A stretch of DNA of 37,645 nucleotides from Candidatus Dormiibacterota bacterium (GTDB lineage Bacteria; Vulcanimicrobiota; Vulcanimicrobiia; Vulcanimicrobiales; Vulcanimicrobiaceae). The notes beneath the pieces were generated by a model. It saw nothing but the letters and a program-made list of their open reading frames with translations, did not search any database and was not told the DNA's origin. The first letter of the stretch is position 1. The number at the start of each line of letters is the position of its first letter. Location of the stretch: assembly GCA_035532835.1 (NCBI GenBank), contig DATKQG010000048.1, positions 1-37,645 on the forward strand, in the 5' to 3' direction. Positions 1,141 through 34,288 of this stretch are shown one piece after another. Made by a program: the position numbers and the translations under genes.

Positions 1141-1893
1141 TTAGGCTCGGAAGAACAGCCCCAATGCCGATGCGAGCATGAAAGCGGCGAATATCAGGCG
1201 TAGCCCGCGCTCGGGAAGGCGCTTGGCGAGATTGACGCCCTGCGGAACGGAGTAAACGCCGCCGATCGCCAGCGCGATGCCGGTAATCCAATCGACGTCG
1301 TGAGCGGCAGCGAACGTCGCGATGCTCACCACCGTTCCCGGAGCGACCAGCGCGAGCCCCATGCCTTGCGCGGCCACTTGACTCAAACCGAAAAACGTGG
1401 ACATGACCGGTACGGCGAACACCGCGCCGCCGACGCTGAAGATGCCCGAGAGCGAACCGCCGATCGCGCCGACGATTGCGGCAAACGGCCACGGCAGCAC
1501 GCGCGGTTCGCCTTCGCGTTTTTTGTGCGCGAGCGCGCGATACGCCATTTGCGCGGCGATGGCAAGAATAAACACGCCAAACGCGATGCGTAGCGGTTTG
1601 CTGGGGAGCGTCGTTGCGATGCGCGCCGCCACAAATGTGAACGGCACGGCGGTAACGGCCAGCGTGATTGCCAGACGCAGATCCATACCGACCTTGCGGA
1701 TATAATGCCAGAGGCCAAGCAGCACGTTCGGCACGATCATCACGAGTGCCGTACCCTGCGCCGCCTGTTCGGAATAGCCGAAGAATAGCCCCAGCATCGG
1801 AATCGCGATCAATCCACCGCCAATGCCGAGCAGGCCACCCACATAGCCAAGGGCCACGCCCAACACCAGATAGATCCCAACGTGGAGCAACAT
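1141..1893 (-). CDS. TauE/SafE family sulfite/anion exporter
   Basis: About 250 residues and almost entirely hydrophobic: eight predicted membrane segments in two similar halves, the family architecture. The N-terminal half has GYVGGLLGIGGG close to the start and the second half repeats it as GSLSGIFSVGGA, the glycine-rich repeat that defines TauE/SafE (PF01925). Family members move sulfur-containing anions or organic acids; the substrate here is not known. Two ATGs are possible, at 1902 and 1893. Neither has a Shine-Dalgarno, and a perfect TATAAT at 1906-1901 overlaps the first, so I prefer 1893, where the transcript would be leaderless. It lies downstream of the efflux operon on the same strand but probably has its own promoter. 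Confidence 0.88.
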   Translation of the reverse strand: MLLHVGIYLVLGVALGYVGGLLGIGGGLIAIPMLGLFFGYSEQAAQGTALVMIVPNVLLGLWHYIRKVGMDLRLAITLAVTAVPFTFVAARIATTLPSKPLRIAFGVFILAIAAQMAYRALAHKKREGEPRVLPWPFAAIVGAIGGSLSGIFSVGGAVFAVPVMSTFFGLSQVAAQGMGLALVAPGTVVSIATFAAAHDVDWITGIALAIGGVYSVPQGVNLAKRLPERGLRLIFAAFMLASALGLFFRA

Positions 1894-1900
1894 GGGCGCC

Positions 1901-1906
1901 ATTATA
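1901..1906 (-). promoter_or_regulatory. -10 box TATAAT directly before the tauE start (leaderless candidate)
   Basis: The minus strand reads TATAAT at 1906-1901, followed by seven bases and then ATG at 1893. A transcript would therefore begin at or next to the start codon. No convincing -35 hexamer lies 16-18 bases upstream (GCTTCG or TGCTTC). A 7-base inverted repeat (AAGCAGC at 1914-1920, GCTGCTT at 1941-1947) lies over the -35 region and could be an operator. Confidence 0.5.
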
Positions 1907-1977
1907 CTGCGCCAAGCAGCCTTCGAAGCACGGAACAGTCGCTGCTTCCAGGCCCATGGCGGGGTGAGCCGCCGAGC

Positions 1978-2670
1978 TTAGAGGCGTGCCTCCGCAAATT
2001 CCGGGGCGCCAGCTACGCAGCCGTCGAGTAGCCCGATGGTGCGTTTTGCGTACTTGGCGAAGCGGCGATCGTGCGTGACCATGACGATGGTCGAACCGCT
2101 TTCGTGCAGTTCCGCCAGCAATTCCATCACGGCATCGCCGTGAGCGCTATCGAGATTGCCCGTGGGTTCGTCGGCAAGCAGCACCGACGGATTGCCCGCA
2201 AGCGCGCGAGCGACGGCGACGCGTTGCTGCTGTCCGCCCGAGAGCTGCGCCGGATAATGGCGTCCGCGATGCGCAATATCGACGCGATGCAGTACTTCGG
2301 CCACGCGACGTTTGCGTTCGCTCTTGGTTACGCCGCGGTAGATTAGCGGCAACTCGACGTTTTCTTCAACGCTTAGATCGCCGATGAGGTTGAAGTTTTG
2401 AAAGATAAAACCGATCTCACGGTTGCGAATGCCGGCGCGATCGGTGGTTGAGAGCGTTTCAACCGCGTTGCCGTTGAGCATATACGAGCCGCTCGTCGGC
2501 GCGTCGAGCAGCCCGATGATCGAGAGGAGGGTCGACTTCCCGCAGCCGGACGGTCCTTCGATCGAAACATAGTCGCCGCGATCGATCGATAGGGTGATGT
2601 CGCGCAGAGCCCGTGTCTCCACTTCATCGGTAGAGTAGTTCTTGGAGACGGCGTGAAGTTCTAGGAGCAT
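1978..2670 (-). CDS. MacB/LolD-type ABC transporter ATP-binding protein
   Basis: 230 residues, the full length of a stand-alone ABC ATPase. Visible motifs are Walker A GPSGCGKST (39-47), Q-loop Q91 in FIFQNFNL, signature LSGGQQQR (143-150), Walker B VLLADEPTGNLD (163-174) and switch His200 in IVMVTHD. The FQNFNL and EPTGNLD context is typical of the MacB/LolD/FtsE branch that powers FtsX-fold permeases by mechanotransmission. It is the last gene of the PadR / permease / HlyD / ATPase operon and begins 14 bases after the adaptor stop. It should energise the 860-residue permease encoded two genes upstream, at the inner membrane. Confidence 0.95.
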   Translation of the reverse strand: MLLELHAVSKNYSTDEVETRALRDITLSIDRGDYVSIEGPSGCGKSTLLSIIGLLDAPTSGSYMLNGNAVETLSTTDRAGIRNREIGFIFQNFNLIGDLSVEENVELPLIYRGVTKSERKRRVAEVLHRVDIAHRGRHYPAQLSGGQQQRVAVARALAGNPSVLLADEPTGNLDSAHGDAVMELLAELHESGSTIVMVTHDRRFAKYAKRTIGLLDGCVAGAPEFAEARL

Positions 2671-2684
2671 CGTTTTCCCTTTCG

Positions 2685-3962
2685 TTAGTGCAAGCGGAGC
2701 GTCGAAATGCCGTTGTACGCTGAGGTATCCGAGACGATGACGGCGTCGCCCGCAGCGAGGCCGGAGAGTACTTCGATGCGATCTGCCGAGCCGGGGCCTA
2801 GGCGCACGTGCGCGAGCCGCGCGATGTTGCCATGCGGATCGAGGCGATAGAGTTCGGCATCGGTGTTGTCGGCGGCCCCGGCCGGGCGAGCGATGGAGAG
2901 CACACCGCGCAATGTTTGCAGATCGATCGTACCATCGACGGTAAGATCGGGGCGTGCCCCGGGCGGAAGTGCTTGGGTGAGCGCCACGTCGACATTGACC
3001 GTCCCGTTTTGCGCCGCCGGAGCGATACGCGCAACACGTCCGTTGGCGATGCCGTTTCCGGTGTCGATGCGCGTCGGCATGCCTATCGCCATATCGTGCA
3101 CCTGGCCTTCGGCGACTTGCAGCACCGCTTTGAGGTGTTGCTGATCGGCAATGCGTGCAAGCTCCGTCCCCGATTCCACCCGGGCTCCGGGATCGACCGC
3201 AACCGATTGTACGATGCCGGACGACCGTGCGCGAACGACGAGCGCAGCGACCTCAGCCTGTTTCGCCTGGAGCTGCGCTGCGGCCTGATCGACTTGCGCC
3301 TTAGCGGCAGCGATCTGCGCCGCCGATTCGGCCGCTCCGACGCCGATCTGCGAACGTGCCACCCGCACCTGAGCGGCAGATTGCGTCACCTTGATTGCTG
3401 CGATCTGATAGGTCTGAGCGGCAACGTACCCGCTATGCAGGAGCGATCGAAGGCTCGTGAGATCGATCGCGTCTACGTCGGCTTGTGCGCGCGCGGTGGC
3501 GTATGCCGATTGCTGTGCGAGCGCGGCGGCTTGCGCCTGCGCCTGCGCGCTGCGCAGTTGAGCGCGCGCAACGTCAAGCGCGGATGAGGCACTTACGACC
3601 GCAGCATCGAGATCGGGATTGCTCATGCGCGCGATCGGCGTTCCGCCGAATACCGCGGCTCCAGGCTTGACGAATACGGCATCGATAATGCCGGGCTGGA
3701 CGGCGGCGACGACGTGCACTTCCTGCGGCTGCAGCGTTCCGGCCGCAGAGACCGAACGCTCGAGCGTTCCTCGGCGAACCACGCTCGTGACGAGCGCCGC
3801 GCGATCGACGGTGACACCACCATCGCTACGGGCGAGAGAGAACACGGCAAACGCGCACGCAACCACGAGCAGCGCTATCGCGGCGGGGACAAGGACACGT
3901 CTGGATAAGCGCCTCCGAGGCGTGCGAGCGACGTCCATACCGCCGATCGCTTGTGGCCTCAT
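2685..3962 (-). CDS. HlyD/MacA-type periplasmic adaptor (membrane fusion protein)
   Basis: 425 residues. One membrane anchor at about 23-44, then a beta-barrel/lipoyl segment (LVTSVVRRGTLERSVSAAGTL, QPGIIDAVFVKPGAAV), a long Ala/Gln-rich coiled-coil hairpin (about 120-230), the returning lipoyl half (VVRARSSGIVQSVAVDPGARVESGTELARI) and a C-terminal membrane-proximal barrel. This is the MacA domain order. It should link the inner-membrane permease to an outer-membrane TolC-type channel, but no such channel is encoded here. Its ATG overlaps the permease stop as ATGA, so translation is probably coupled. The coiled coil is unusually Ala-rich, which fits the GC-rich genome. Confidence 0.92.
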   Translation of the reverse strand: MRPQAIGGMDVARTPRRRLSRRVLVPAAIALLVVACAFAVFSLARSDGGVTVDRAALVTSVVRRGTLERSVSAAGTLQPQEVHVVAAVQPGIIDAVFVKPGAAVFGGTPIARMSNPDLDAAVVSASSALDVARAQLRSAQAQAQAAALAQQSAYATARAQADVDAIDLTSLRSLLHSGYVAAQTYQIAAIKVTQSAAQVRVARSQIGVGAAESAAQIAAAKAQVDQAAAQLQAKQAEVAALVVRARSSGIVQSVAVDPGARVESGTELARIADQQHLKAVLQVAEGQVHDMAIGMPTRIDTGNGIANGRVARIAPAAQNGTVNVDVALTQALPPGARPDLTVDGTIDLQTLRGVLSIARPAGAADNTDAELYRLDPHGNIARLAHVRLGPGSADRIEVLSGLAAGDAVIVSDTSAYNGISTLRLH

Positions 3963-6541
3963 TCGTATCGCAACGCTTCGGCGGGTTGCACGCGCGTTGC
4001 CCTCATGGCCGGCTGCAACGACGCGAGCGCGGTGCAGAGAAAGACGAGTACGACAACGGTCGCAAAGGTCGCTGGATCGAAGGGGGATATGCTGCCGAGT
4101 TGCGAGGCGATCGCGCGCGCGGCTATCGCTGCCAGCACCAGGCCTAACGCTACGCCCGTCGCCGTGGTCACGAACGCGCGACGAAGGACATCAATCACGA
4201 TATCACGCGCCGTCGCTCCGAGCGCAGTGCGAACGCCGAATTCCCGCACGCGCTGCGTCACCGAGAACGAGACGACGCCGAAGATGCCGGAGAGCGCGAG
4301 CAGCAACGCAATAAGCGCGAGCAGACCGAGCAGAATCGCCGCGAAGCGGGCTTGCGCCGTTGCGATCGCAACGAGCTGCGGCATCGTATACGTGGCAGGT
4401 GGCTGCACCAACGGCATCGTGCGGGCGAACGCACCCTGCACCTCGCGCCCCGCTACCGCGACATCGACACGCGGTGCGTAGACGACGGAGCTAAGGTACG
4501 GCGGTGAGGCCTGCGCTGCCGGCGTATACACCTCTGGTTCGGGCGCGCTCGTAAGGCTGTCGCGCTCGTTCGCGACGACGCCGACGATGGCCGCCCACGC
4601 TCCCGCGGAACCCGGACCCTGGAGGCGAATACGCGCCTGCAGCGAGTCGGTTCCCTTCAAGATGCGTGCCACGAAGGCTTGGTTCACTATGGCGACCGGC
4701 GCGGAACCCGTCGCGTCGCTAGCGGTGAAGGCCCTTCCGCGCACGAGCGGTATGCCGAGAGCGCGGAAGTACTCGGGACTTACATCGTTGGTCCAGGCGA
4801 AGGGCGCGCCTCCGTTCGGATACGTGCGGCCGAACACGTCTATCGAGCCCCCGATCCGCGTATCACCGAGGGGGTAGCTCAATGCCAGCGATGCGGCCTC
4901 AACGCCCGGCAACACGCGAAGACGCCGCAACAATGCGCGTTGCATCGTCGCGCGCGCTGCGGGCGAACCGTACTGCTGCGGTACGGCGACGCTCTCCGTG
5001 ACGACCACGCCTTCCGGACGAATGCCGAGCGGCGTATGCACCAGAGCAACGAAGCCGCGAAGCATCAGGCCGGAGACGATGACGAGCGAGAGCGCGAGCG
5101 CGACCTCGAGGACGACGAGCACGGCTCGCATGCGGTGCCTGCGCGATCCGTCGCCGCCGCGGCCCGCGGACTTTAACACCGAATGCAGATCGTTTGCGCG
5201 CAGCGAGAGCAGTGGCGAGAGGCCGGCGAGGAAGGTCGCTATGATGACGGCGCCCATCGCGTACAACAGACTCACGGCATCGATCCGCACCGACGATGCG
5301 CGCGGCAGGGCGGTGGACATCAGGCCGCTCAGCACGTGGAGCGCGGCGAAAGCAAGGACGATGCCGATAATCGCACCGATAAACGCGAGCACGCCCGTCT
5401 CTATGAAGAGTTGCCCTGCGATCGCCCGTGACGACGCCCCAAGCGCGCGACGAATTGCGAGTTCACGATCGCGCGACGACCAGCGCGCCGCAAGCATATT
5501 ACCGATATTCGCACACGCGATCAGGAGCACGCCGACGACGGCTGCAAAAATGATCCATAGCGACGAAGCGGCACTTCCAAGCACCGTGCCGACAAACGAG
5601 ACCAGCGAGAAGGTCCAGTGCGCGTCGGTATCGGGATAGAGGCGTTGCAGCCGGTTAGAAATAAGTTTAAACTCGGCGTTGGCGTTGGCAAGCGAAACGC
5701 CGGGCGAGAGCCGTGCTACGGCTCCAAGAAAGCGCGCGCCGCGGCTACGCGCGGTGCCCGTTTCCGGCAACGCTTTAAGGAAATCCCCGTGACCGATCGA
5801 CCCCTGCGATGGGTCGGCAAGCGTTTGATTCCGACGCAAGATGCCAACGATGCGAAATGACTGGCCGTCGAGCGAGAGCGTGCTCCCTAGCGTGCTCGGG
5901 CGTAGAGCGAAGTATTTCTGCCATATCTGGTATGAGATGACGATATTATGCACGCCTGGACGGCCGTCGGAGGGTTCGAGCGCCCGGCCGAGTTCCGGCT
6001 TAATGCCCAGAATCGTTGAGTATTCGGGCATAACGTCGAGCCCGTAGAGCGAGACGGGGCGCCCGCCGACGAGCAGCGTGCCTTGATCGTCACTGACGGC
6101 GGCAATCGCAGCGATGGTGTGCGTCTGCGTGCGCAGATCGGATGCGTCGGTTACCGATATTGCCGGAAACGTGTGGCCGCGCGGGTCGTGCGCCTGCACG
6201 ATGACCAGGCCCGACGCGTTCGGAAACGGGAGCGGCCGAAGCACGACACCGTTGAGCACGCTGAAGACCGCGACGTTTGCGCCGATTCCCAGCGCGAACG
6301 TTAGGATGACGATCGCAACGAAAAGGGGCGCTGCTCGCAATCGACGCAGCGCGTAAGACGCATTACGGAGAAAACCCTCGAAGCGCATGGCGATTCCACC
6401 TCTAAGCAGATCGAAGAGCAAAGCGGCCGGATGGGCCCCATCATGGGCGATGTCCGCCAGGATTTGGTCGGCGTAATGCGCGCGAAAGTCGCTCGGATAG
6501 GCGTAGAGCGCGGCGCGTGCCAGCACCCCGAGCGCGTTCAC
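3959..6541 (-). CDS. ADOP-family FtsX-like ABC permease (duplicated MacB permease)
   Basis: 860 residues. An N-terminal cytosolic prefix (about 1-55, with YPSDFRAHYADQIL) is characteristic of the acidobacterial duplicated orphan permease (ADOP) family. Two MacB_PCD/FtsX units follow: TM1 at about 72-95 (FALGIGANVAVFSVLNG), a periplasmic domain, three membrane segments around 330-440 (GSAASSLWIIFAAVVGVLLIA), a second TM at about 470-495, a second periplasmic domain, and a final FtsX segment with FGVRTALGATARDI. Most ADOP genes lack partner genes; this one sits with its own ATPase and adaptor. It overlaps padR upstream and hlyD downstream by 4 bases each. Substrate unknown; macrolide-type drugs, lipids or peptides are all possible for the family. 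Confidence 0.92.
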   Translation of the reverse strand: MNALGVLARAALYAYPSDFRAHYADQILADIAHDGAHPAALLFDLLRGGIAMRFEGFLRNASYALRRLRAAPLFVAIVILTFALGIGANVAVFSVLNGVVLRPLPFPNASGLVIVQAHDPRGHTFPAISVTDASDLRTQTHTIAAIAAVSDDQGTLLVGGRPVSLYGLDVMPEYSTILGIKPELGRALEPSDGRPGVHNIVISYQIWQKYFALRPSTLGSTLSLDGQSFRIVGILRRNQTLADPSQGSIGHGDFLKALPETGTARSRGARFLGAVARLSPGVSLANANAEFKLISNRLQRLYPDTDAHWTFSLVSFVGTVLGSAASSLWIIFAAVVGVLLIACANIGNMLAARWSSRDRELAIRRALGASSRAIAGQLFIETGVLAFIGAIIGIVLAFAALHVLSGLMSTALPRASSVRIDAVSLLYAMGAVIIATFLAGLSPLLSLRANDLHSVLKSAGRGGDGSRRHRMRAVLVVLEVALALSLVIVSGLMLRGFVALVHTPLGIRPEGVVVTESVAVPQQYGSPAARATMQRALLRRLRVLPGVEAASLALSYPLGDTRIGGSIDVFGRTYPNGGAPFAWTNDVSPEYFRALGIPLVRGRAFTASDATGSAPVAIVNQAFVARILKGTDSLQARIRLQGPGSAGAWAAIVGVVANERDSLTSAPEPEVYTPAAQASPPYLSSVVYAPRVDVAVAGREVQGAFARTMPLVQPPATYTMPQLVAIATAQARFAAILLGLLALIALLLALSGIFGVVSFSVTQRVREFGVRTALGATARDIVIDVLRRAFVTTATGVALGLVLAAIAARAIASQLGSISPFDPATFATVVVLVFLCTALASLQPAMRATRVQPAEALRYE

Positions 6542-6983: not shown

Positions 6984-7715
6984 CTACTTTATGCCGAGTT
7001 TTGCGAGTTCGATGACGATGGGGTCTTCACCTGAATTGTAGCCGGAGACATCGGCACGCACGATGTCGCTTGAGTCGACGACGTACAAGTGCGGCAGCGT
7101 CACCGTCGCCGCCGGCATGTTCGCAACATTCACGGGCGCAAGTACCGGCGCAGTAAACGATACGCCGCGTGCAGTAGCGTAGGCGGTGCACGCAGATGCA
7201 CTCGCGCTCGCGCAGTAGGTTCCGATGTCTTTTAATTTCGCGATGGTCGCCGGGTCGATCCCCGATTTTGCCATTTGAGGTAGCAGTTGCAGCAACGCCT
7301 TGGGCGGTACGCCTGCTAGGTGAATCGAGTCTTCCGGTACCGATGCGTTCGGATCCACCGGCGGCGGTGCGTCGGTGTTAGGATGCGATTGAACGACGGG
7401 AAACGGAATGTGATACTTCGCCACAACGGCGTCGCCGGCGCTCGGGTTATCCAAATAATCGACACCGAGGAAATCGGCCCGGTCCTTGAACCGCGCATAA
7501 TCCTGAATGACGCGCGGCATCTCGTCCAAACACCCGACGCACCACGAGGCGAAGGCTACGATAACGAGCGGGCGAGAATGAACCGCGATTGGCGCTTTCG
7601 TGCCGACCGCCAACTGCACGGGATCGAACGAAGCGCTCGGCGTTGCTGCCAAGAGGGCAAATGCCGCGACGGCGGCGACCACACCATGTCGTACCATAGG
7701 GCGAACCGTTGTCAC
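6984..7715 (-). CDS. Exported TlpA-like thioredoxin-fold protein with CVGC motif
   Basis: 243 residues from a GTG start, with a signal peptide or anchor at about 8-28. The thioredoxin core is shown by VIVAFASWCVGCLDEMP, with the redox pair at C59 and C62, and by the cis-proline strand LPHLYVVD near residue 208. Between them the family core is interrupted by about 100 extra residues, including a Pro/Asp-rich loop and a helical part with two more cysteines. TlpA/ResA-like proteins reduce disulfides in the periplasm, often of apocytochromes c or copper centres. That would suit the cytochrome protein encoded just across the divergent gap, but the link is inferred from position only. Confidence 0.82.
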   Translation of the reverse strand: MTTVRPMVRHGVVAAVAAFALLAATPSASFDPVQLAVGTKAPIAVHSRPLVIVAFASWCVGCLDEMPRVIQDYARFKDRADFLGVDYLDNPSAGDAVVAKYHIPFPVVQSHPNTDAPPPVDPNASVPEDSIHLAGVPPKALLQLLPQMAKSGIDPATIAKLKDIGTYCASASASACTAYATARGVSFTAPVLAPVNVANMPAATVTLPHLYVVDSSDIVRADVSGYNSGEDPIVIELAKLGIK

Positions 7716-7776: not shown

Positions 7777-8325
7777 GTGAAAGCGCCGCGACTTCCCGTT
7801 TGGGCTGTAGCCGCCGTCCCGACCGCACTGGTTGGGCACGGTTTGGCGTATATGCTCGCGGGCCGAACGATGGCCGACGGCCACCACGCGTGGTTCGCAC
7901 CCACCTTCGAGATCTCGGGGGCCGTACTCATCGCCCTCTGCCTCGCGCTTGCCGGGAGCGCGCTCATGCGTGCCCGGGTGATGGCCCGGGTTGGGGTAGA
8001 GCGCTCGCTCACGGCGCTATGGCCGCGCCTCGCCGTCGCGCAGTTCGTGCTGTTCGCCGGCATGGAGCGCGCCGAAGGCACGCACGCAACGCTGCTCGGC
8101 TACGCGGTACAGATTGCCGTCGCGCTCGTCGCGGCGGTCGTACTCTCACTCTTCGCCCGGCTCCTCGCACGCTGCATCGATAGCGCGCACGAAGCCGGCC
8201 GCTACCTCGAACGGCTCTTCGCGGAAGTCGCTACGATCATTCCCCGTCGGTCCGTGTGGTGCCCCAGCACGCTTGCCGTACAGATCGGCTCCCACCGCTT
8301 CGTTCGCCCGCCTCCGCATTCGTAG
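7777..8325 (+). CDS. Small multi-pass membrane protein of unknown function
   Basis: 182 residues from a GTG start with only a weak CAGG ribosome site. Four hydrophobic segments are visible at about 8-28, 42-62, 82-96 and 103-128, then a soluble tail with Arg, Trp and Cys. HG in the first segment and HHAW in the first loop are possible metal or haem ligands. It is divergent from the TlpA-like gene and 45 bases upstream of the porin-cytochrome gene in the same direction, so it may serve that protein. I do not recognise the family. Confidence 0.7.
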   Translation: MKAPRLPVWAVAAVPTALVGHGLAYMLAGRTMADGHHAWFAPTFEISGAVLIALCLALAGSALMRARVMARVGVERSLTALWPRLAVAQFVLFAGMERAEGTHATLLGYAVQIAVALVAAVVLSLFARLLARCIDSAHEAGRYLERLFAEVATIIPRRSVWCPSTLAVQIGSHRFVRPPPHS

Positions 8326-8370
8326 TCAGCCCTCTCCGTTTTCGACTACGCTTTCCAGGAGGTCCACTAG

Positions 8371-10167
8371 GTGCATCGTGCCACCAACGCGGGCTTGCGC
8401 GCACTCTGCGTTGCAGCCGTCATCTTTTTCGCCGCATTCGCTCGCGCGGATGCCGTGCCGGTTTTTGCCAACGGCCAGGGTGTAACGTGCGAAACGTGTC
8501 ACACCACATTCCCCGGCATGACGCGCTACGGCATGATGGTGATGATGACGAATTTCCAAATTCTCAATCGCCATCTGCAAGACAAGGCGCTTCCGCTTTC
8601 GGCGCGCTTGTATATCACATCGATCCTCGCCAATAAGAATAATCCCGGCTCGACGACCGTCTCGGATCTCTCGCTTCTCGGCGGGGGCTTTCTCGGCCGC
8701 AACTTTACGTGGTATACCGAGCAGCACGTGATCGATTCGTCCCAAATCGGGCAGACCGAACAGATGTGGCTCTCGTGGAACGGGCTCTTTCACGGCACCA
8801 ACTCGCTGCAAGTCGGCAAGTTTCACACGCCGTTTCCGTTCATGCCCGCGCACGCGTGGACGATCGGCAACTACTTGCTCGCAACGCAGACGACCGGGCA
8901 AAACGATTTCAACCCGAACGATGCACGCTGGGGCGTCGCTATGAACGGTATGTCGAACGAGTTCATGTACAACCTGTCGTACCTAACGAACAGCGGCCCG
9001 ACGGGGACGGCTTTCAATTACAACCAAGCCGACAATCAGCGCACGCTGGATGCGAATATCTCCTACGGCGGCATGGTGGTTCCGTGGAGCGTGGGCGCCG
9101 TCGCGATGCGCGGCTTCGCGCCTCTGACGTATGCGGGCGGCGGCCTCGCGGGCTCCGACGCGTTCACGCGCGAAGGGCTCTACCTCGGCTACCAAACCAG
9201 CAAGTGGCATTATCAAACGATGTACTACCACGGTGTCGATGCGCATCCCGATTTCGCGGAGTACAACGTTCCGCTCAACGGGTTCTTCTTCGAAGCCGAA
9301 CGCGATCTCGGCTGGCGCAACCACATTCTGCTGCGCTACGACGTGGCATCCAGCGATACGCTGAACCGGCAGTTCGTGCTCGATTATTCGCACAATTTCG
9401 AACCGAATTTTGCCGTGATCAGCGAGCTCGCGGCATTCCCGGGGACGCGGCCACAGATTGCGTTCCAGATTGCGTACGCGGGACCGTATCAGTTCGGCAA
9501 GCGTTATTTACCGAATCTGCACGTCGTTCCGGTGGACGGAGAGAGCCTCGTCCCGGCGGTGCCGAGCGCGAACAGTGCTACGTCTGCCACGGCGGGCGGA
9601 TCGTCTGCGAGCGCATCTGCCGCAAGTCCGGCCGCAGCGACGGCAGCGGGCGGCGATGCGAATGCGGGCGAGCAGCTGGTGCAGGCGAACGGTTGCGAAG
9701 GCTGCCACGGTGCTACGTTCAAGGGCGGTATCGGGCCCGCGCTGTACGGCGTCGAGCATCGGCTCGCGCCGGGCGCTATCGCGCAAGCCATCTCCGCGCC
9801 GAAAGCACCGATGCCGAACTTCGGGTTCACCACAACGCAAATCTCCGACATCGTCGCGTATCTTTCGGGGCTGGACGGCGGCACCGCAAATACGACGCCC
9901 GTGGTAACGTTCGATCCGGCAACACCGACGGACATGGCAACGGTACGCGTCACCTTCCCGGGAACGCCTCCGCAACACGTCACGGTAACCCCGATCATGG
10001 ACATGGGCGGCACAAAAATGCCGACCCGCGAGGTCCCCATGGCGCCAACCCCGGGCAACCCCAACGTCTTCACCGCAAAAATCGTGTTTTCGATGGGCGG
10101 CCCGTGGACGGTGCATATCATCTACGACGGAAAGTCGATGGACGTGCCGCTCAATGTGGGGTCATAG
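8371..10167 (+). CDS. Cyc2-like porin-cytochrome fused to cytochrome c and YtkA-like domains
   Basis: 598 residues from a GTG start with AGGAGGT 8 bases upstream. Domains in order: signal peptide (1-27); haem motif CETCH (40-44) followed by TTFPGMTRYG, the signature of Cyc2-type fused cytochrome-porins; a region of about 100-375 full of alternating aromatic strands ending GPYQF, as in an outer-membrane beta-barrel; an Ala/Ser linker (395-430); a class I cytochrome c with CEGCH (442-446) and probable axial Met481; and a C-terminal beta-sandwich (about 520-598) like YtkA/FixH domains, with MDMGGTKMP and FSMGGPW. Cyc2 carries electrons across the outer membrane in Fe(II) oxidisers. Known Cyc2 proteins end after the barrel, so the two extra domains are unusual. 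Substrate unknown. Confidence 0.82.
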   Translation: MHRATNAGLRALCVAAVIFFAAFARADAVPVFANGQGVTCETCHTTFPGMTRYGMMVMMTNFQILNRHLQDKALPLSARLYITSILANKNNPGSTTVSDLSLLGGGFLGRNFTWYTEQHVIDSSQIGQTEQMWLSWNGLFHGTNSLQVGKFHTPFPFMPAHAWTIGNYLLATQTTGQNDFNPNDARWGVAMNGMSNEFMYNLSYLTNSGPTGTAFNYNQADNQRTLDANISYGGMVVPWSVGAVAMRGFAPLTYAGGGLAGSDAFTREGLYLGYQTSKWHYQTMYYHGVDAHPDFAEYNVPLNGFFFEAERDLGWRNHILLRYDVASSDTLNRQFVLDYSHNFEPNFAVISELAAFPGTRPQIAFQIAYAGPYQFGKRYLPNLHVVPVDGESLVPAVPSANSATSATAGGSSASASAASPAAATAAGGDANAGEQLVQANGCEGCHGATFKGGIGPALYGVEHRLAPGAIAQAISAPKAPMPNFGFTTTQISDIVAYLSGLDGGTANTTPVVTFDPATPTDMATVRVTFPGTPPQHVTVTPIMDMGGTKMPTREVPMAPTPGNPNVFTAKIVFSMGGPWTVHIIYDGKSMDVPLNVGS

Positions 10168-10236: not shown

Positions 10237-10305
10237 ATGCCTTCCGTGAACACGTCCGTAGATTCCGTCGATATCAGCTCTGAGGTGCCTCATGCAGCGC
10301 GTTGA
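10237..10305 (+). CDS. Possible 22-residue leader peptide, leaderless
   Basis: The ORF reads MPSVNTSVDSVDISSEVPHA then AR. It begins 6 bases after a perfect TATAAT and its TGA lies 14 bases inside the nuclease-helicase gene in another frame. The arrangement would allow leaderless initiation and coupled translation of the downstream gene. It is Ser/Val-rich with no rare-codon run, so classical attenuation is not suggested. It may equally be a chance ORF. Confidence 0.3.
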   Translation: MPSVNTSVDSVDISSEVPHAAR

Positions 10306-13300
10306 TGGCGGGTTCGTTTATTCTGCCACGGATTTGAATAATTTCGTCGAGTGCCGGCGCTTAACCGAGCTCGAAGCTCTCGTCGCGTTCAAAGTACTTC
10401 CCCGCCCGGATGGCGACGACGAGCAGGCGGAGCTGATTCGGGAGAAGGGCCAGGCCCACGAGGATCGCTATCGCGAGCGCTTGCAGCAAGAATACCCCGA
10501 CGACGTCGTCTGCTTCGGGCGGGCCGAGCCCGGCGCGGAAGCGTACCGCGAGGCGGAACGCCAAACGCTCGAAGCCATGCGCCGGGGCGCGAAGATTATC
10601 TATCAGGCAACGTTCTTTGACGGCCAGTTTCTCGGACACGCAGATTTCCTCCAGCGCGTCGAGACCCCGTCCGATCTTGGCAACTGGAGCTACGAAGCGA
10701 TCGACACGAAGCTGGCGCTCTCCACAAAGCCCTATTTTATCGTCCAGCTTTGCAACTACAGCGAGCACCTCATGCGGCTGCAAGGCCGCATGCCGGACCG
10801 CGGCTACATCGTGCTGGGGAACGGTGAGAAGCAAGGATTTCGCCTACACGATTACACCGCATACTACCGCCATCTAAAATCGCGCTTTCTGGCGTTCGTC
10901 TCCGATCCCGCACTTGCCGCAGAGGCGGCAGCTCGCGTATACCCTATGAAGTGTAACCATTGCATGGTGTGCCCCTGGAACGAGACGTGCACGGATCAAC
11001 GCGTCAGCGACGACCACCTAAGCCTGGTAGCGTGGATGCGGCGCGATCAAGTCTCAAAGCTCGAGGATGCCGGCATCACGACGGTCGCAGCGCTCGCGCA
11101 AGCCGACCCTAATGTTAGCCCTAAGAGCATGAACTCGGGAACTTTCGCGAAGCTGTGTAAACAAGCGCGCCTGCAAGTGCGCAGTCGCGAGACCGCCGAG
11201 CCCGTCTACGAGTTGCTGCCGCACGACCCGCGAACCGGGTTTGGCCTGCTGCCGGAGGCAGCTCCCGGCGATGCCTACTTCGATATGGAAGGCGACCCGC
11301 TCTACGAGCCGGGCCGCGGGCTGGAATATCTCTTTGGCTGCTGGCTGCCCGATGATGAAGCAACGTTCACGACATTCTGGGGCTTGGATCGTGCCGCCGA
11401 AAAACAGGCGTTCGAGCAATTCGTCGATTTCATCGTTGAGCGCCGGCGGCGCTATCCGGCCATGCACGTCTACCACTATGCGAATTACGAAAAAGCCGCC
11501 CTGCGCCGTCTTTCTCAGGAGCACAGCACGCGGGGAGATGAAGTTGATGCTCTCCTTCGTGGCGAGGTGCTCGTCGATCTCTATGCGGTCGTACGGCAGT
11601 CGCTGATGATCGGTGAGGATAGTTATAGCATTAAACGCCTGGAGCGCTTTTACGGATTACAACGTTCGACGGAAGTGAAGAAAGGCGACCAGTCGATCGT
11701 GATGTTCGAGAATTGGCGCGTTCACCGGGATGCGAACATTCTGCGCGACATCGAAGATTACAACAAGGACGATTGCGAGTCGACATACCTGCTCCATCGA
11801 TGGCTGCTCGCGCGCCGCGAGGAAGCGATCGCCACGTTAGGCGTTAGCTTTCCCTTTCGGCCGGTAAAATCGCCGCGCGACCGCTGCCACGCAGAGTTCT
11901 TCGAAGGCTGTGCGAAGTGCAAGCGTCGAGCGGCGGCCGAACGCGAACAAGCGCGCACGACGGATCTTGAGCGCACGCTACTCCAGGGCATCGCACAGCC
12001 TCAGAGCGACGAGGAGTACTATCGCCTAAGCGATGACTGGCGCACGCGATATCTCATGGGGCATCTTCTCTCCTATCATCGTCGCGAAGAAGCACCGGTC
12101 TGGTGGGCATATTTCGACCGCTGCGAAAACATCGATACCCTCCAAGACCAAGATAGCGAGGCAATCGGCGGTTTAGAATACTGCTCGGACGCGGCCCCGT
12201 ACAAGCTCAAACCGGCGGACCGAAATCTCGTGCACACATATCGCTTTCCCGAGCAACGTCACAAGCTGGACCGCGGTTACGTCCACGATCCGCGGCTCCA
12301 GGATTCGGCCGGCGAGATTATCGAAATCGACGAAGAGCAGAACATCCTACGCCTGAAACGCTCCGGGAGCGCCGATGACGCCAAGGCCGTCGACGCCCTG
12401 ATTCCCCGCGGTCCGATCAACACCGATCTCCAGCGCAGCGCACTCACCCGCATCGCCCAGGCCTATCAAGCCGGAACTCTCCAAACGCAGCATCCGGCGA
12501 CGTTCGATCTTCTTTCATCCCGCGATCCACGCGTCGTCGGACATTCCGTATTACAGCCCGAGGAGGTTTCCGCGCAGAGCGTTTCCGCCGTCGTACAGGC
12601 TCTCGACAACAGCTATCTTTTCATCCAAGGCCCTCCCGGCAGCGGCAAGAGTACCACCGGATCGCAAGTGATCTGCGATCTACTTCGCGCCGGCAAACGG
12701 GTGGGCGTCCTTAGCACCGGGCACAAAGCCATTCACCATCTACTACATAAAGTTGAAGACTGTATGGCCGAGCGCGGCGGTACGTTCCGCGGCCTCTACA
12801 AGCACAGCAATACTAATGCCGGTTCGGCTTTCCAGTCCAGGCTGGAACAGCCGTTCATCGAGTCCATCGACGATGCAGAGGCCTTCGATAGCGGTGACTA
12901 CGATTTGGCCGGCGGCACCGCTTGGCTTTTCGCCCGCGAAGAGCTCGCGGGAACGTTCGACTACCTATTCATAGACGAAGCAGGGCAGGTTTCGCTCGCC
13001 GATGCGATTGCCGTCTCCGCATGTGCGAAGAACGTGGTTCTACTCGGGGATCCATCGCAACTCGCGCAGGTGAGCCTGGGCACACACTCCAGCCACGCGG
13101 ACGATTCCATCCTGCAACATCTCCTCGCCCAAGCGACGACGGTTCCACCGCACCGTGGTATTTTTCTCGATATCTCCTACCGGATGCACCCGGATATTTG
13201 CAGCTTCATTTCAACGGCGATGTACGACGGGCGTCTGCATTCGGGAGCGAAAATGCATTTGCACCGGGTTACGAGCACGGGCTTGAGCGGATCCGGGCTT

Positions 13301-13789
13301 CGCTACCTGCCAATCGAGCATTTCGGCAATGGCCCCCGTTCCGTGGAAGAAGCAGATCGTATCGTCCGCGAAATCGTGTCCTTGTTGGATGGTACCGTCG
13401 TGGATGATGACGGCAAAGAGAGGCCTCTCCGGCAATCCGATATTATCGTGGTCGCTCCGTATAACGCCCAGCGGAAGCTCATAACAAGCAAACTCAAGAG
13501 CGCCGGCATCGACGTAGCGGTCGGCACCGTCGATAAGTTCCAAGGCCAGGAAGCAGCGGTGGTTTTCTATTCGATGGCCACGTCGAGCGGCGACGATATT
13601 CCGCGCGATATCGAATTCTTATTCGAGCCGAACCGCTTCAACGTGGCGATTTCTCGCGCCCGCGCCATGAGCGTCTTGGTCTGCAGCCCGAAACTTCTCG
13701 ATCTGTCCTGCCGTTCCGCAGACCAGATGGCCTTGCTCAACGTGGTGTGCGCTTATGTGGAGCACGCGCGAGGCGCAATCGCCGTCTAA
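10292..13789 (+). CDS. TM0106-type RecB-like nuclease / RNase H-like exonuclease / Upf1-like helicase
   Basis: 1165 residues, full length for the TM0106-type fusion. The N-terminal RecB-like nuclease has GHADF (about 115-119) and the catalytic IDTK (about 136-139). C21 together with CNHCMVC and a later Cys (about 220-233) forms a Cas4/AddB-like four-cysteine iron-sulfur set. The middle is a DEDD-type RNase H-like exonuclease: YFDMEGDP (about 329-336) and DYNKDDC (about 489-495). The C-terminal SF1B helicase has Walker A GPPGSGKST (about 780-788), DEAGQ (about 894), GDPSQLAQV, VDKFQGQE (about 1082) and NVAISRAR (about 1116). A role in DNA or RNA processing and repair is expected; some relatives lie in defence islands, but no partner gene is present here. 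The ATG at 10292 has a modest GAGGTG site. Confidence 0.92.
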   Translation: MQRVDGGFVYSATDLNNFVECRRLTELEALVAFKVLPRPDGDDEQAELIREKGQAHEDRYRERLQQEYPDDVVCFGRAEPGAEAYREAERQTLEAMRRGAKIIYQATFFDGQFLGHADFLQRVETPSDLGNWSYEAIDTKLALSTKPYFIVQLCNYSEHLMRLQGRMPDRGYIVLGNGEKQGFRLHDYTAYYRHLKSRFLAFVSDPALAAEAAARVYPMKCNHCMVCPWNETCTDQRVSDDHLSLVAWMRRDQVSKLEDAGITTVAALAQADPNVSPKSMNSGTFAKLCKQARLQVRSRETAEPVYELLPHDPRTGFGLLPEAAPGDAYFDMEGDPLYEPGRGLEYLFGCWLPDDEATFTTFWGLDRAAEKQAFEQFVDFIVERRRRYPAMHVYHYANYEKAALRRLSQEHSTRGDEVDALLRGEVLVDLYAVVRQSLMIGEDSYSIKRLERFYGLQRSTEVKKGDQSIVMFENWRVHRDANILRDIEDYNKDDCESTYLLHRWLLARREEAIATLGVSFPFRPVKSPRDRCHAEFFEGCAKCKRRAAAEREQARTTDLERTLLQGIAQPQSDEEYYRLSDDWRTRYLMGHLLSYHRREEAPVWWAYFDRCENIDTLQDQDSEAIGGLEYCSDAAPYKLKPADRNLVHTYRFPEQRHKLDRGYVHDPRLQDSAGEIIEIDEEQNILRLKRSGSADDAKAVDALIPRGPINTDLQRSALTRIAQAYQAGTLQTQHPATFDLLSSRDPRVVGHSVLQPEEVSAQSVSAVVQALDNSYLFIQGPPGSGKSTTGSQVICDLLRAGKRVGVLSTGHKAIHHLLHKVEDCMAERGGTFRGLYKHSNTNAGSAFQSRLEQPFIESIDDAEAFDSGDYDLAGGTAWLFAREELAGTFDYLFIDEAGQVSLADAIAVSACAKNVVLLGDPSQLAQVSLGTHSSHADDSILQHLLAQATTVPPHRGIFLDISYRMHPDICSFISTAMYDGRLHSGAKMHLHRVTSTGLSGSGLRYLPIEHFGNGPRSVEEADRIVREIVSLLDGTVVDDDGKERPLRQSDIIVVAPYNAQRKLITSKLKSAGIDVAVGTVDKFQGQEAAVVFYSMATSSGDDIPRDIEFLFEPNRFNVAISRARAMSVLVCSPKLLDLSCRSADQMALLNVVCAYVEHARGAIAV

Positions 13790-26693: not shown

Positions 26694-27860
26694 CTACAGC
26701 GCCGAACCGACCGCTGCGACGAAGGCCGCCTCGCCCCTTGTCAGCTCGTGATAGAGCGCGATTTCGGTGGCATGCGAGCAGACTTGCAGGCGCCACCAAT
26801 TAAGCGCCGCCGGGTCGCGAGGGTTGACGCCGAACCGCGGGGCGACGGCAGCAAGCATCGGCCGCACGTGGTGCGCTGCGTCGATGGCGAGCACGTAGTC
26901 GTGGTCGCTGAGGTGGTTCACGAAGCATTCGATCGCGGGAAGCGTCGCAAGCTCGTATCCGTTATCGGTTTTACGCACTAACCCGTATTCGACCGGGTCG
27001 ACGCCGGCCAGCATCGCGGCCGCGCGGCACCAGGTCGCGACCTTGGCTTGATCCCCGAGCGACGGCGCAGCGTGCGCGCTCAGCAGCACCGTTACGAAAC
27101 GCGCGTCCCGGCCCCGAGCGATCGCCTCGGCGCCCGAGAGGACGTGGTGTCCGCCGGTATTGCCGATGAGCAACTCGTCAAAAAACGTTCCGTCCGCGTT
27201 GTACTGAAAGACCATCGTCTTCATGATGTCGTGGTAGAGCGCCGCACCGATCGCCAGGTTCCGATCCACCGTGGAGCGGCCGTTGAAATACTGCAGGTCG
27301 TAGATGCGGGTAAACTGCTCGCCCATACGCGCGTTAAAGAGTTCGTGCACGCACAAGCCGCCGGGGTAGCTGTGGTGGCCGTTCGTATCCGAACCGGGCG
27401 CGCTCCAGAACGGCTGCGCGTAACCCAACACCGGCGACATCGGCGGAAAGACGCCCGATACGGGCGCGTCGGGAGCGATAAAATCCGCGAACGCCATCGC
27501 GTCGCGCATCGCGAGCTGCGAGGCCGGGCTGGGGTAGCGCCGCATGTAACGCGGAACGGGCAGACTCAATAAATCGAGCACGTCGGCGCGCAGCGTCGCA
27601 TCGCCGATCGAGGCGGCAAGTGCGGTAATTTGCGCGACGTGGGCTCGAATGTACGGCGAGCCGCTCGCAATGCGAGCGGCTCGTTCGTTGGCGGGCGCCA
27701 GACCCGCGGGAATCATCAGGCTGGCTTGCTCGCCCGCCGCATCCTGAACCGCGGCGAGCGCTCGCGCGGGATCCGCGAAGAGCGGGAGCGCCGCAGCGCC
27801 CACCGCTCCCAGGAATCCACTACGCGAAAGTAACGACGACCGAGTTTGCGATACACACAC
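26694..27860 (-). CDS. Exported HD-like metal-dependent phosphohydrolase family protein
   Basis: 388 residues from a GTG that overlaps the stop of the VPS10-like gene (TAGTG), so it is coupled to that gene. The N-terminus (about 9-36, RSGFLGAVGAAALPLFADPA) is a signal sequence with a weak Tat look. Metal-ligand candidates follow HD-domain order: GHHSYPGGL (H162-H163), VHEL (H172), LYHDIMK (H210-D211), GGHHVLSGAEA, then LSAHAAPSLG and NHLSDHDYV. Cytosolic HD proteins act on nucleotides or RNA, so an exported one is unusual. The C-terminus stops at a TAG followed in frame by an MFS remnant, so the present end may be a rearrangement product. Substrate unknown. Confidence 0.78.
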   Translation of the reverse strand: MCVSQTRSSLLSRSGFLGAVGAAALPLFADPARALAAVQDAAGEQASLMIPAGLAPANERAARIASGSPYIRAHVAQITALAASIGDATLRADVLDLLSLPVPRYMRRYPSPASQLAMRDAMAFADFIAPDAPVSGVFPPMSPVLGYAQPFWSAPGSDTNGHHSYPGGLCVHELFNARMGEQFTRIYDLQYFNGRSTVDRNLAIGAALYHDIMKTMVFQYNADGTFFDELLIGNTGGHHVLSGAEAIARGRDARFVTVLLSAHAAPSLGDQAKVATWCRAAAMLAGVDPVEYGLVRKTDNGYELATLPAIECFVNHLSDHDYVLAIDAAHHVRPMLAAVAPRFGVNPRDPAALNWWRLQVCSHATEIALYHELTRGEAAFVAAVGSAL

Positions 27861-30800
27861 TATGGGGTGATGGTTATCGCTCCCGCGACCGGTTTCTTGC
27901 CTTTGGCATGCAATTCGGACGAAAGCCCCGAGAGGCTCTGTACGAAGGCATTGTACTTCGCGAACGCTGCCGTATATGCGGTATCAAATTCCGCCGCGTA
28001 CGTCAGGGTCGCCGCCGTCGGCGGTTGCTGTTCGCCGAAACCCGTCCGCGGCACCGATTCGCGCAGCGAGCCGGGGCGTTGGATCGAGTCCTCGTCGTTC
28101 TTGTAATCGGCGGTGAACGCGGAGAATACCGCGTTACGCTGCGCCTGCGCTTTGGTCACCTGAGCCGCGAGCGACGCGTCGCCCTTGGCCGCAACTGCCG
28201 CCGCGTTCAGCGATTTACCGATCGTATCGAGGTGGTTGAGCACGTCGTCGATCTTGCCGTATTTCGCGAGATACGTGGTTGCAAAGTCGAAACCGGCTTG
28301 GTAATCGGCCTGCGTCCAATGGTCGCGCGGATCGGGCTTCACTTCGAAGCTCTGCTCGAGCGTCTTGCCGTCGAGCGTCATGCGCACCGTGTACGTGCCC
28401 GGAACGGCGAGGGCGCCGACCTTGGGGCCACGGTACTTCTCACGCGCCGCGCCCATCCAGAGCGTCGGCCCGGTTTCGTGGAAGTCCCACACGAAGCGAT
28501 TGATGCCGGCTTTATTCGTTACGAACGGGACGTTTTTGTCTTTAACCTTATGCGTGCCCATAATCGTGCGAATCACGGCGCCCTTTGCATCGAGAATCTG
28601 CACGACCGGAGCCTTCGCCTGCGGTTTGGCTTGGTAGAAGTCGACGATCGCACCGTTCGGCGGATTCGCGCCCGAGTACCGCGTGTAGATGCCTTCGTCG
28701 TTGGAGTGGTAGTGATATTCGTAGGACGTGCGAGGCTTGAACAGCATCACGCCGGCCTTTTGCGCTTCCGCGAGTTGTTGGATCGACGAAGCATCGTCGA
28801 GAACCCACACGCCGCGCCCGTGCGTCGCGAGGACGATATCGTCGAACTGCGGCTGCAGACGGATATCGCGCACCGAGACTTGCGGGAGGTTGTTGCGGAA
28901 GTTTTGCCAGTGCGCTCCCTGGTCGAACGAGATCCAGAGACCGTTTTCGGTTCCGGCGTAGACGACGTTGGGGTTGCGAATGTCGGGGCGAATCGTACGC
29001 ACGTACTGGTCGTGGGGTAGACCGGTCACGATCTTGGCCCAGGTCTTACCATAGTCGTGCGTGACGAACGCATACGGCGCGTAATCGCCCAACCGGTGAT
29101 TGTCGGCACTCACGTATGCGGTGCCCGCAACCAGCGGCGATGGCGAGGTGGCTTCGACACGCGCGTACTCGGGAACGCCCGGAGGCGTCACCTTGTTCCA
29201 CGTCGTGCCGCCGTCGCGCGTCATCTGGACCAAGCCGTCATCGGTTCCAACCCAGATCTCGCCTTTGTCCAACTGCGATCCCTCAATGTACAGGATCGTA
29301 TCGGAGTACTCGGCACCGGAGACATCCTTCGCAAGCGGTCCGCCGGAGGGTTGTTGATGGGCTTTGATATTGCGCGTGAGATCCGGGCTGATCGCCGTCC
29401 AATGCTCGCCGCGATCGGTCGTTTGGAACACGACGTCACTACCGAACCAACCGATGTGTCCGTCCCATGGAGCGAACGCGATCGGCGAATCCCAGTTAAA
29501 GCGATACTTGGCTTTGCTCAGATCGAACGGGCCCAGGAAACTGCCCGGGAAGGCGTTGTACGGCATGACGAACCGGCTCGATTGCGTCTGCTTATTGAAG
29601 ACGAGTATGACGCCGTTTTCGAGATCCGACCAGATGTAGTTGGGATCGATCGGGTCCGGTACGCTCCATTCGCCATCACCACCGACGACGTCGGTCCAGT
29701 GGCGGTCGAGAATGCCTTCGTTGTCGAGTGAGTTCGACGGGCCGCAGAAACCGTTGTTGTCCTGCAGCGGCGCGCAGATCGTGTACGGGTTCTCGTTTGA
29801 GAGCCCGACGTGATAGACTTCGCCGATCGTCAGATTGCGCGAGAACGACCAGTGCTTGCCGTTGTCCAGCGTCAATGCGTATCCGCCGTCTTCGCCGGTG
29901 ATGATGCGGCTGGGATTATTCGGCGCGATCCAGATCGCGTGGTAATCCACGTGCACGCTCTTTGCGATCTCTTTGAATTTTTTGCCGCCGTCTTTGCTCT
30001 CCGAGAGCATCTCGGAGACGGCATAGACGTGGTTTTCGTTCTTTGGATCGACCGCGATATGCGTGAAGTAGAACGGGCGCTGGTCGACCAGCGTATCGTT
30101 CGACATCATCTTCCAATGCGCGCCCGCATCGTCCGAGCGCCACAGAATGCCGCCCTTCGCCTCGATCAGCGCATAGACGCGATTGGGGTTGCTCGGAGCT
30201 ATCGCCAGCCCGATGCGGCCGGTGTAGCCGGTCGGGAAGCCGTTGCCGGTGACGCGCTTCCATTTGCGTCCGCCGTCGGTCGATTTATACAAACCGTCCT
30301 GCGGGCCGCCGCTGGTGAACGTCCACGGCTTGCGGCGAAACTGCCAGATACCCGCATACACCACGCTCGGGTTTTGCGGATTCATCGCGATGTCGCTCGC
30401 GCCGCTCATCGGGCCGACGTAGAGCGATTTGCTCCAGGTCTTACCGCCGTTGAACGTCACGTAGACGCCGCGATGGGTCGAGTCCTTAAACGGGTCGCCG
30501 AACGCGCCGACGACGACGTGATTGGGATTCTTCGGGTCGATAGCGATGCGCGAGATGCTGCGCGTGAGCGCGAGGCCGACGCGCTTCCAATGCTTGCCGC
30601 CGTCGGTCGTCTTATAGAGACCGTCGCCGTAGCTGACATCGTTGCGCGGATTGGCTTCTCCGGTACCGGCCCAGACGACGTTGTCGTTGCGCGGGTCGAT
30701 CGCCACGGCGCCTATCGCCGAGACGGCTTGATTGTTGAAGACCGCCTTCCACGTCGCGCCGCCGTTGGCGCTCTTCCACACGCCGCCGCCGGCGGTCGCC

Positions 30801-30982
30801 AAATAGTACAGGTTCGGGTCTTGATCGGTGCCCGCCACGCCCGCGACGCGGCCCCCGGCGATCGCCGGGCCGATGTTGCGCCATTTGAGCGCTGCATACG
30901 GGGCATCCGCCGCGGATGCAATACTTGGCCCCAGGAGTGCGATTGCCGCCAAAGCGGCGATCGCACCGATGCGTTTTTTCAC
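27860..30982 (-). CDS. Secreted sortilin/VPS10-like beta-propeller protein (copy 2)
   Basis: 1040 residues from a GTG with GGAGGAGG 7 bases upstream. Signal peptide 1-24. Many Asp-box repeats (GGGVWKSANGGATW, GLYKTTDGGKHWKR, GLYKSTDGGRKWKR, FQTTDRGEHW, MTRDGGTTWNK) form sortilin/VPS10-like propellers over about 25-760. The last 250 residues hold a beta-sandwich (FVWDFHETGP, VPGTYTVRMTLDGK) and a helical end (NDEDSIQRPGSLRE). Automatic annotation often calls such proteins glycosyl hydrolases, but I see no catalytic residues to support that. They are common in Acidobacteriota and relatives and may bind or process peptides outside the cell. It is a tandem duplicate of the upstream gene. Confidence 0.9.
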   Translation of the reverse strand: MKKRIGAIAALAAIALLGPSIASAADAPYAALKWRNIGPAIAGGRVAGVAGTDQDPNLYYLATAGGGVWKSANGGATWKAVFNNQAVSAIGAVAIDPRNDNVVWAGTGEANPRNDVSYGDGLYKTTDGGKHWKRVGLALTRSISRIAIDPKNPNHVVVGAFGDPFKDSTHRGVYVTFNGGKTWSKSLYVGPMSGASDIAMNPQNPSVVYAGIWQFRRKPWTFTSGGPQDGLYKSTDGGRKWKRVTGNGFPTGYTGRIGLAIAPSNPNRVYALIEAKGGILWRSDDAGAHWKMMSNDTLVDQRPFYFTHIAVDPKNENHVYAVSEMLSESKDGGKKFKEIAKSVHVDYHAIWIAPNNPSRIITGEDGGYALTLDNGKHWSFSRNLTIGEVYHVGLSNENPYTICAPLQDNNGFCGPSNSLDNEGILDRHWTDVVGGDGEWSVPDPIDPNYIWSDLENGVILVFNKQTQSSRFVMPYNAFPGSFLGPFDLSKAKYRFNWDSPIAFAPWDGHIGWFGSDVVFQTTDRGEHWTAISPDLTRNIKAHQQPSGGPLAKDVSGAEYSDTILYIEGSQLDKGEIWVGTDDGLVQMTRDGGTTWNKVTPPGVPEYARVEATSPSPLVAGTAYVSADNHRLGDYAPYAFVTHDYGKTWAKIVTGLPHDQYVRTIRPDIRNPNVVYAGTENGLWISFDQGAHWQNFRNNLPQVSVRDIRLQPQFDDIVLATHGRGVWVLDDASSIQQLAEAQKAGVMLFKPRTSYEYHYHSNDEGIYTRYSGANPPNGAIVDFYQAKPQAKAPVVQILDAKGAVIRTIMGTHKVKDKNVPFVTNKAGINRFVWDFHETGPTLWMGAAREKYRGPKVGALAVPGTYTVRMTLDGKTLEQSFEVKPDPRDHWTQADYQAGFDFATTYLAKYGKIDDVLNHLDTIGKSLNAAAVAAKGDASLAAQVTKAQAQRNAVFSAFTADYKNDEDSIQRPGSLRESVPRTGFGEQQPPTAATLTYAAEFDTAYTAAFAKYNAFVQSLSGLSSELHAKGKKPVAGAITITP

Positions 30983-31018
30983 GCTAATGCCTCCTCCACG
31001 AGGGTTGATGGGTGCACG

Positions 31019-34219: not shown

Positions 34220-34232
34220 GTGTTGGGACCTC

Positions 34233-34248
34233 CTAGAAGTTCTTCTAG
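34233..34248. promoter_or_regulatory. Inverted repeat abutting the ribosome site of the first VPS10 gene
   Basis: CTAGAAG and CTTCTAG are perfect 7-base arms with two central bases. On the mRNA (minus strand) the second arm runs into AGGAGGT, so a 6-base-pair hairpin with a GAAC loop would border the Shine-Dalgarno. It may be a DNA operator or a translation control element. Confidence 0.5.
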
Positions 34249-34255
34249 CCGTCCC

Positions 34256-34288
34256 CCGCACGCGCGCGACTCTCCTGCGCGCGTGCGG
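34256..34288. repeat. 12-base perfect inverted repeat between the PYP-like and VPS10 genes
   Basis: CCGCACGCGCGC at 34256-34267 and its exact complement GCGCGCGTGCGG at 34277-34288 flank a 9-base loop. On the minus strand it lies 25 bases after the PYP-like stop. No T-tract follows, so it is either a non-canonical terminator or a structural or regulatory hairpin. Confidence 0.75.

Follow-up and report, generated by a model that had tools for sequence, protein, structure and literature searches.

Gene organisation of the locus

The DNA analysed here (the window, 37,645 nucleotides in full), from a bacterium of the phylum Eremiobacterota, encodes, on the forward strand at positions 8371-10167, a complete open reading frame of 598 amino acids in which a porin-cytochrome, a cytochrome c domain and a YtkA-like domain are joined in a single chain. 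Reading of the sequence revealed a GTG start codon and a perfect Shine-Dalgarno AGGAGGT (8357-8363, forward strand) that ends 7 nt before it. A chance ORF or a mis-assembly was excluded by full-length orthologues across many genera, one of them within a 0.97-Mb contig, and the fusion is thus taken to be real and under selection.

Upstream of the fusion lies a gene for a small membrane protein of 182 aa (7777-8325, forward strand), which gave no Pfam or NCBIfam match; its blastp relatives (32-51% identity) immediately precede the fusion in nine other genomes. Downstream, a gene combining a TM0106-type RecB-like nuclease with an IGHMBP2-type helicase (10292-13789, forward strand) occupies the position held by a multicopper oxidase (MCO) gene in relatives. 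As this is the next downstream gene and the MCO gene of the same genome is located on another contig (C35), the window was rejected as a full operon. A thioredoxin-like gene (6984-7715) and an ABC exporter (1978-6541), both on the minus strand, were also dismissed as partners, conserved linkage to the fusion not having been found. Elsewhere in the window, the minus strand at 27860-34261 encodes two neighbouring proteins, 1040 and 1080 aa long, that contain Sortilin/BNR repeats, and the strand opposite the second of these is open almost throughout (31136-34189, forward strand, 1017 aa). The genome from which the window derives encodes cytochrome c assembly, Omp85 and haem-copper oxidase functions, with three genes for haem-copper oxidase subunit I.

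A Cyc2-like plug and predicted barrel

The fusion begins with a predicted signal peptide (residues 1-28; 8371-8454), recognised from the sequence and from a helix at residues 2-23 of the model, with probable cleavage after ADA. It is followed by an N-terminal haem plug (residues 29-75; 8455-8595), delimited by conservation and by hhalign comparison with Cyc2, which comprises VPVFANGQGVTCETCHTTFPGMTRYG and then MMVMM, and reads AVPVFANGQGVTCETCHTTFPGMTRYGMMVMM in the ORF translation. The first haem c attachment motif, CETCH (residues 40-44; 8488-8502), is located here and its CxxCH is invariant among orthologues; the run of CETCH and TTFPGMTRYG that the first-pass annotation had placed at the mature N-terminus is indeed present.

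Residues 76-371 (8596-9483), noted earlier as an aromatic strand region, were predicted by AlphaFold2 to form a 16-stranded outer-membrane beta-barrel. In a structural comparison of residues 66-371, OprP and OprO ranked first with a Z score of 20.8, tied with rows down to Z 19.8, and with this predicted porin fold the soluble periplasmic middle domain, which the first-pass annotation had named as refuting its reading, was rejected. These two porins are also the published structural match of Cyc2 (PMC8406198). A PDB sequence search with the whole fusion returned mainly weak cytochrome c matches. Mean pLDDT for the whole fusion was 66, falling below 50 in residues 23-74 and 441-463, which include the plug and haem loops, so that haem placement in the model is of low confidence.

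Proteins of the Cyc2 family carry the motif AXPXFAR[Q/K][T/Y] ahead of CXXCH (PMC8406198). Only half of this motif is kept in the fusion, which has AVPVFANGQ, with NGQ in place of R[Q/K][T/Y]; N34 and Q36 are invariant within the fusion clade. Like Cyc2, the fusion carries CXXCH at its mature N-terminus, directly after the signal peptide, and its predicted barrel is of the 16-strand OprP/OprO-like type by both AlphaFold2 and structural comparison, but it departs from the single haem motif of Cyc2 in having a second CXXCH (residues 442-446) within a Pfam cytochrome c domain. When six proteobacterial proteins that contain the Cyc2-type haem motif, all plasmid-encoded, were combined into a profile, hhalign matched the fusion to it with a probability of 96.7 and an E value of 3.3e-10 over 98 columns only, covering the plug and first strands. 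The proposal of a Cyc2-like barrel with a haem plug hence stands as regards the barrel model and the homology of the plug, whereas the strict Cyc2 motif is lacking; by predicted fold and plug homology the fusion is a relative of Cyc2, and by motif it is Cyc2-like as opposed to a strict Cyc2.

For five of the six reference Cyc2 proteins, the next listed gene downstream encodes a separate c-type cytochrome; it follows directly in four, whilst on the Acidithiobacillus plasmid a gap of about 500 bases intervenes. Two proteins whose genes lie side by side in Proteobacteria are thus combined where plug-barrel and cytochrome form one chain.

The barrels of clades linked to an MCO share a distinctive set of methionine and histidine residues. 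M55, H152, M158 and H161 were present in every one of 26 such barrels, whereas 19 other Cyc2-like paralogues lacked them at those positions, and M194 and M199 were likewise invariant across the 26. Residues 152-184 (8824-8922), beginning HTPFPFMPAHAW, comprise H152 together with the loop that links strand 5 to strand 6, as defined from the model and from residue conservation. Residues 153-184 presumably correspond to loop L3, which in known porins folds into the pore. Linkers of some orthologues are also rich in Met and His, with MHGMSG repeats in two of them (L014 and L069). Haem ligation or shared ancestry, instead of copper, could account for the Met/His set of plug and barrel; the barrels linked to an MCO do form one cluster in the tree, albeit a weak one (support 86/50).

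The cytochrome c and YtkA-like tail

A flexible linker (residues 372-428; 9484-9654), delimited by the orthologue alignment and by the point at which a second family is split, connects the barrel to a class I cytochrome c domain (residues 429-501; 9655-9873; Pfam PF13442/PF00034). The Pfam Cytochrome_CBB3 model matched residues 429-498 above its cut-off (E 5.9e-10). The domain carries the second haem motif, CEGCH, at 442-446 and, in the sequence PMP, Met481, a likely axial ligand conserved without exception across the 22 full-length orthologues that were aligned; both the linker and a second CxxCH domain with a likely axial Met had been recognised in the first-pass annotation. With 16 predicted strands, both termini of the barrel would be periplasmic, and porin topology would accordingly place the tail cytochrome, as had been proposed, and the YtkA-like domain in the periplasm.

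The C-terminal YtkA-like domain (residues 505-598; 9883-10164) was predicted as an Ig-type sandwich of eight strands, with a pLDDT of 91.9 when folded alone (AlphaFold2). Its Pfam YtkA (PF13115) score, 20.5 bits for the whole protein and 24.4 for the domain alone, lies just below the gathering cut-off of 25.9, and the model matches 24 of 29 family members at E values up to 0.1. Among 29 such tail domains M543, M545 and M575 are invariant, whilst at position 550 ten carry M, 18 carry H and one carries T; such interchange is what a soft-metal ligand would be expected to show. M543, M545, M550 and M575 are accordingly put forward as candidate Cu(I) ligands.

A profile of the tail domain retrieved Helicobacter CrdA weakly (E 0.44), with M545 and M575 aligned to CrdA Met69 and Met99, as numbered from Met spacing; both belong to the five methionines proposed to form a Cu(I) cluster in H. 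pylori CrdA (PMC9182242). In a fold comparison CrdA ranked second to third (Z 10.1), tied with unrelated Ig domains. YtkA itself is CtaK, a CuA copper assembly factor of Bacillus (PMC13344008). The suggestion that the last domain binds copper has thus gained a plausible candidate site, in that the M-x-M, M/H, M pattern fits the proposed Cu(I) site of CrdA, and the domain is a probable copper-binding one.

Distribution and phylogeny of the fusion

Searches of the phylum detected orthologues in 29 of 149 Eremiobacterota genomes, some full-length (52-69% identity) and others divided at the linker. A scan of genome contigs with two short peptide patterns gave named matches that were all Eremiobacterota or Vulcanimicrobiota, and no plasmid relatives of the whole fusion protein were found. 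In three genomes, those of the second family (f2), the linker is split such that barrel and cytochrome c-YtkA are encoded by two adjacent genes. A third family (f3), represented by three fusions, joins the barrel to two cytochromes and is without YtkA. Genome G032 harbours an additional, stand-alone cytochrome c-YtkA copy a short distance upstream of its fusion (L017:3817-4410 and 1498-3249), which would be consistent with a duplication of the tail module.

Further Cyc2-like clades within the phylum comprise a barrel with a cytochrome or a barrel alone, represented in the window's genome (G000) on contigs C72 and C86, respectively. Each Cyc2-like group was fully supported in the tree; the union of the fusion with f3 was weak. 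On contig C86 the barrel-only gene (L118:6521-8136) adjoins a cupredoxin gene (Pfam Cupredoxin_1), and a haem-copper oxidase subunit I gene lies approximately 13 kb away; by analogy, this layout recalls the rus arrangement of Acidithiobacillus. A Cyc2-like protein has been reported for MAG 15, an Eremiobacterota genome from acid mine drainage, and the passages of that report on MAG 15 and MAG 14 list Cyc2 for MAG 15 only, naming no extra cytochrome (PMC8357290). The protein found here in the MAG 15 assembly (L111) belongs to the barrel-plus-cytochrome clade. Both assemblies (JABEUX, MAG 15, L111; JABEUW, MAG 14, L108) encode a Cyc2-like protein with a fused C-terminal cytochrome c, with CxxCH at 43 and 436.

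Association with a multicopper oxidase

In 27 of the 29 genomes that encode the fusion, a three-domain MCO gene is located directly downstream, on the same strand and within 58 nt. The exceptions were G095, where the contig ends, and the window's genome, whose MCO on contig C35 has unrelated neighbours and is 60% identical to the query copy. All 29 fusion genomes carry the MCO, versus 51 of the 149 genomes across the phylum (Fisher p 2e-17, uncorrected for kinship). A different, shorter MCO directly follows the f3 form in three of three cases, and stand-alone cytochrome c-YtkA proteins that have no barrel are directly followed by an MCO in ten of 11 genomes. At 15 loci of other Cyc2-like paralogues, most of which belong to the barrel-plus-cytochrome clade, no MCO was found within flanks that reached at most 8 kb. 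This pattern of linkage suggests a conserved core of cytochrome c-YtkA and MCO, to which an outer-membrane barrel has been added in most lineages. The conduit had been described as self-contained, which is now doubtful because the gene in relatives adjoins an MCO.

All three Pfam Cu-oxidase domains are present in the partner MCO, and its copper ligands (HWHG, WYHDH or WYHSH, HPMHLHG and HCHNxxHMMxGM) are kept in nearly all copies, as is the T1 Met. The best NCBIfam model was copper_res_A, which scored 210 bits against a cut-off of 479, with laccase far lower. Met-rich inserts occur in the MCO of the window's genome and in an f3 MCO. A T1 axial Met and Met-rich inserts are commoner in metallo-oxidases. 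In the wider neighbourhood of some relatives, though not conserved in all lineages, are genes for SCO1, NRAMP and an ArsP-type permease.

Proposed function and alternative explanations

We propose, at about even odds (a probability of roughly 0.5), that the fusion is a Cyc2-like porin-cytochrome equipped with its own periplasmic electron acceptor and copper domain, and that it works with the MCO in oxidising a reduced metal. A dissolved reduced metal ion would enter the barrel, Cu(I) being slightly favoured over Fe(II) by the ligand pattern, and its electron would travel by way of the plug haem and next the tail haem to the CopA/CueO-like MCO and finally to O2, whilst the YtkA/CrdA-like domain would hold copper for the MCO or dock it. 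Barrel fold and topology are here predicted from the model, and the substrate, the electron path and copper binding by the fusion are what we infer. Iron as the substrate is no better supported than copper, and the mine-water habitats suit both. Electron transfer from a cytochrome to an MCO would be unusual, since MCOs normally oxidise, and draw electrons from, their own substrate, and a role in copper supply or detoxification would likewise be compatible with the MCO linkage. A more specific form of the proposal, offered tentatively and in our judgement rather doubtful, is a copper-specific branch of the Cyc2 superfamily, in which a Met/His-lined porin-cytochrome would oxidise Cu(I) within its lumen and the tethered cytochrome would pass the electron to a dedicated MCO, the two genes together specifying an outer-membrane metal:O2 oxidoreductase.

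Homology of the plug to Cyc2, the cyc2-cytochrome gene pairs of Proteobacteria, the three haem-copper oxidase subunit I genes of the genome and the Cyc2-like protein reported for an acid mine drainage Eremiobacterota genome (PMC8357290) would all suit an ordinary Cyc2-type iron conduit. Electrons from Fe(II) would there reach the plug haem, a tail cytochrome replacing the usual separate one, and an inner-membrane haem-copper oxidase, leaving the YtkA domain and MCO to copper homeostasis only. We consider this unlikely, however, in view of the tight linkage of the MCO in two sister clades, set against none at the 15 loci of the phylum's other Cyc2-like paralogues, and of the cytochrome c-YtkA module that accompanies an MCO even where the barrel is absent.

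The fusion could instead be a copper-handling machine, with the barrel as a Cu(I) gate lined by a Met/His path and the YtkA domain supplying the MCO with Cu(I), either to be oxidised or to serve as its cofactor; the haems would do no more than set the redox state of copper. The Met/His signature of the plug, loop L3 and barrel rim, the Met/His-rich linkers of some orthologues, the CrdA/CopC-like fold and motif of the tail, an MCO that is nearest the CopA model and Met-rich in its inserts in the window's genome and one f3 copy, and the SCO1, NRAMP and ArsP-type genes near some relatives are consistent with this. Yet two conserved c-type haems, one with standard His/Met ligands, would be costly for a pure transporter, and the wider metal-gene neighbourhood is conserved in some lineages only, such that we regard this explanation as distinctly improbable. 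Laccases are among the solved structures closest to the MCO, which raises the further idea of a laccase-type enzyme acting on phenolic compounds, for which the porin-cytochrome would move electrons or substrates across the outer membrane; the far higher NCBIfam score of copper_res_A, the copper-type domain of the partner, and a T1 axial Met and Met-rich inserts more typical of metallo-oxidases render this highly improbable.

Cyc2 serves as a marker of iron oxidation, though it has many divergent homologues of undecided function. In a whole clade of an uncultured phylum that inhabits acid mine waters and peat soils, the porin-cytochrome is joined to a likely electron acceptor and a copper-type domain, and is genetically joined to an MCO, which suggests a compact machine for the oxidation of dissolved metal ions at the cell surface. 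If copper is oxidised, Cyc2-like genes could not simply be read as evidence of iron oxidation; if iron is, the fusion would reveal which proteins take the electrons. With the parts on one chain and a known partner gene, the electron path is directly testable. A search of the open-access literature found no published description of the fusion or of the Cyc2-MCO gene pair.

Comparison with known systems

The fusion shares with Cyc2 an N-terminal mono-haem plug in a predicted 16-strand OprP-like barrel and AxPxFA ahead of the haem, but has NGQ in place of R[Q/K][T/Y] and a Met/His-containing L3 loop, and adds a second haem domain and a copper-type domain at its C-terminus; in relatives an MCO gene follows, as opposed to a separate cytochrome. 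An Ig-type sandwich, predicted for the tail domain, a Met-rich loop and the later Met of M-x-G-x-W link it to YtkA/CtaK and Helicobacter CrdA, and in a weak profile match two of the proposed Cu(I) ligands of CrdA align with methionines of the tail; here, however, the domain forms the end of an outer-membrane cytochrome chain and scores just under the Pfam YtkA cut-off. The partner MCO resembles CopA/PcoA and CueO in its three Pfam domains, its copper ligands and copper_res_A as best NCBIfam model, although it scores below the cut-off of that model and is paired with a haem-bearing barrel and not with CopB/PcoB. In the rus operon of Acidithiobacillus ferrooxidans, which encodes cyc2, cyc1, an oxidase and rusticyanin, an outer-membrane Cyc2, a periplasmic c-type cytochrome and a copper protein likewise act together, but as separate proteins and with a cupredoxin as the copper protein, whereas here the parts are found in one chain plus an MCO.
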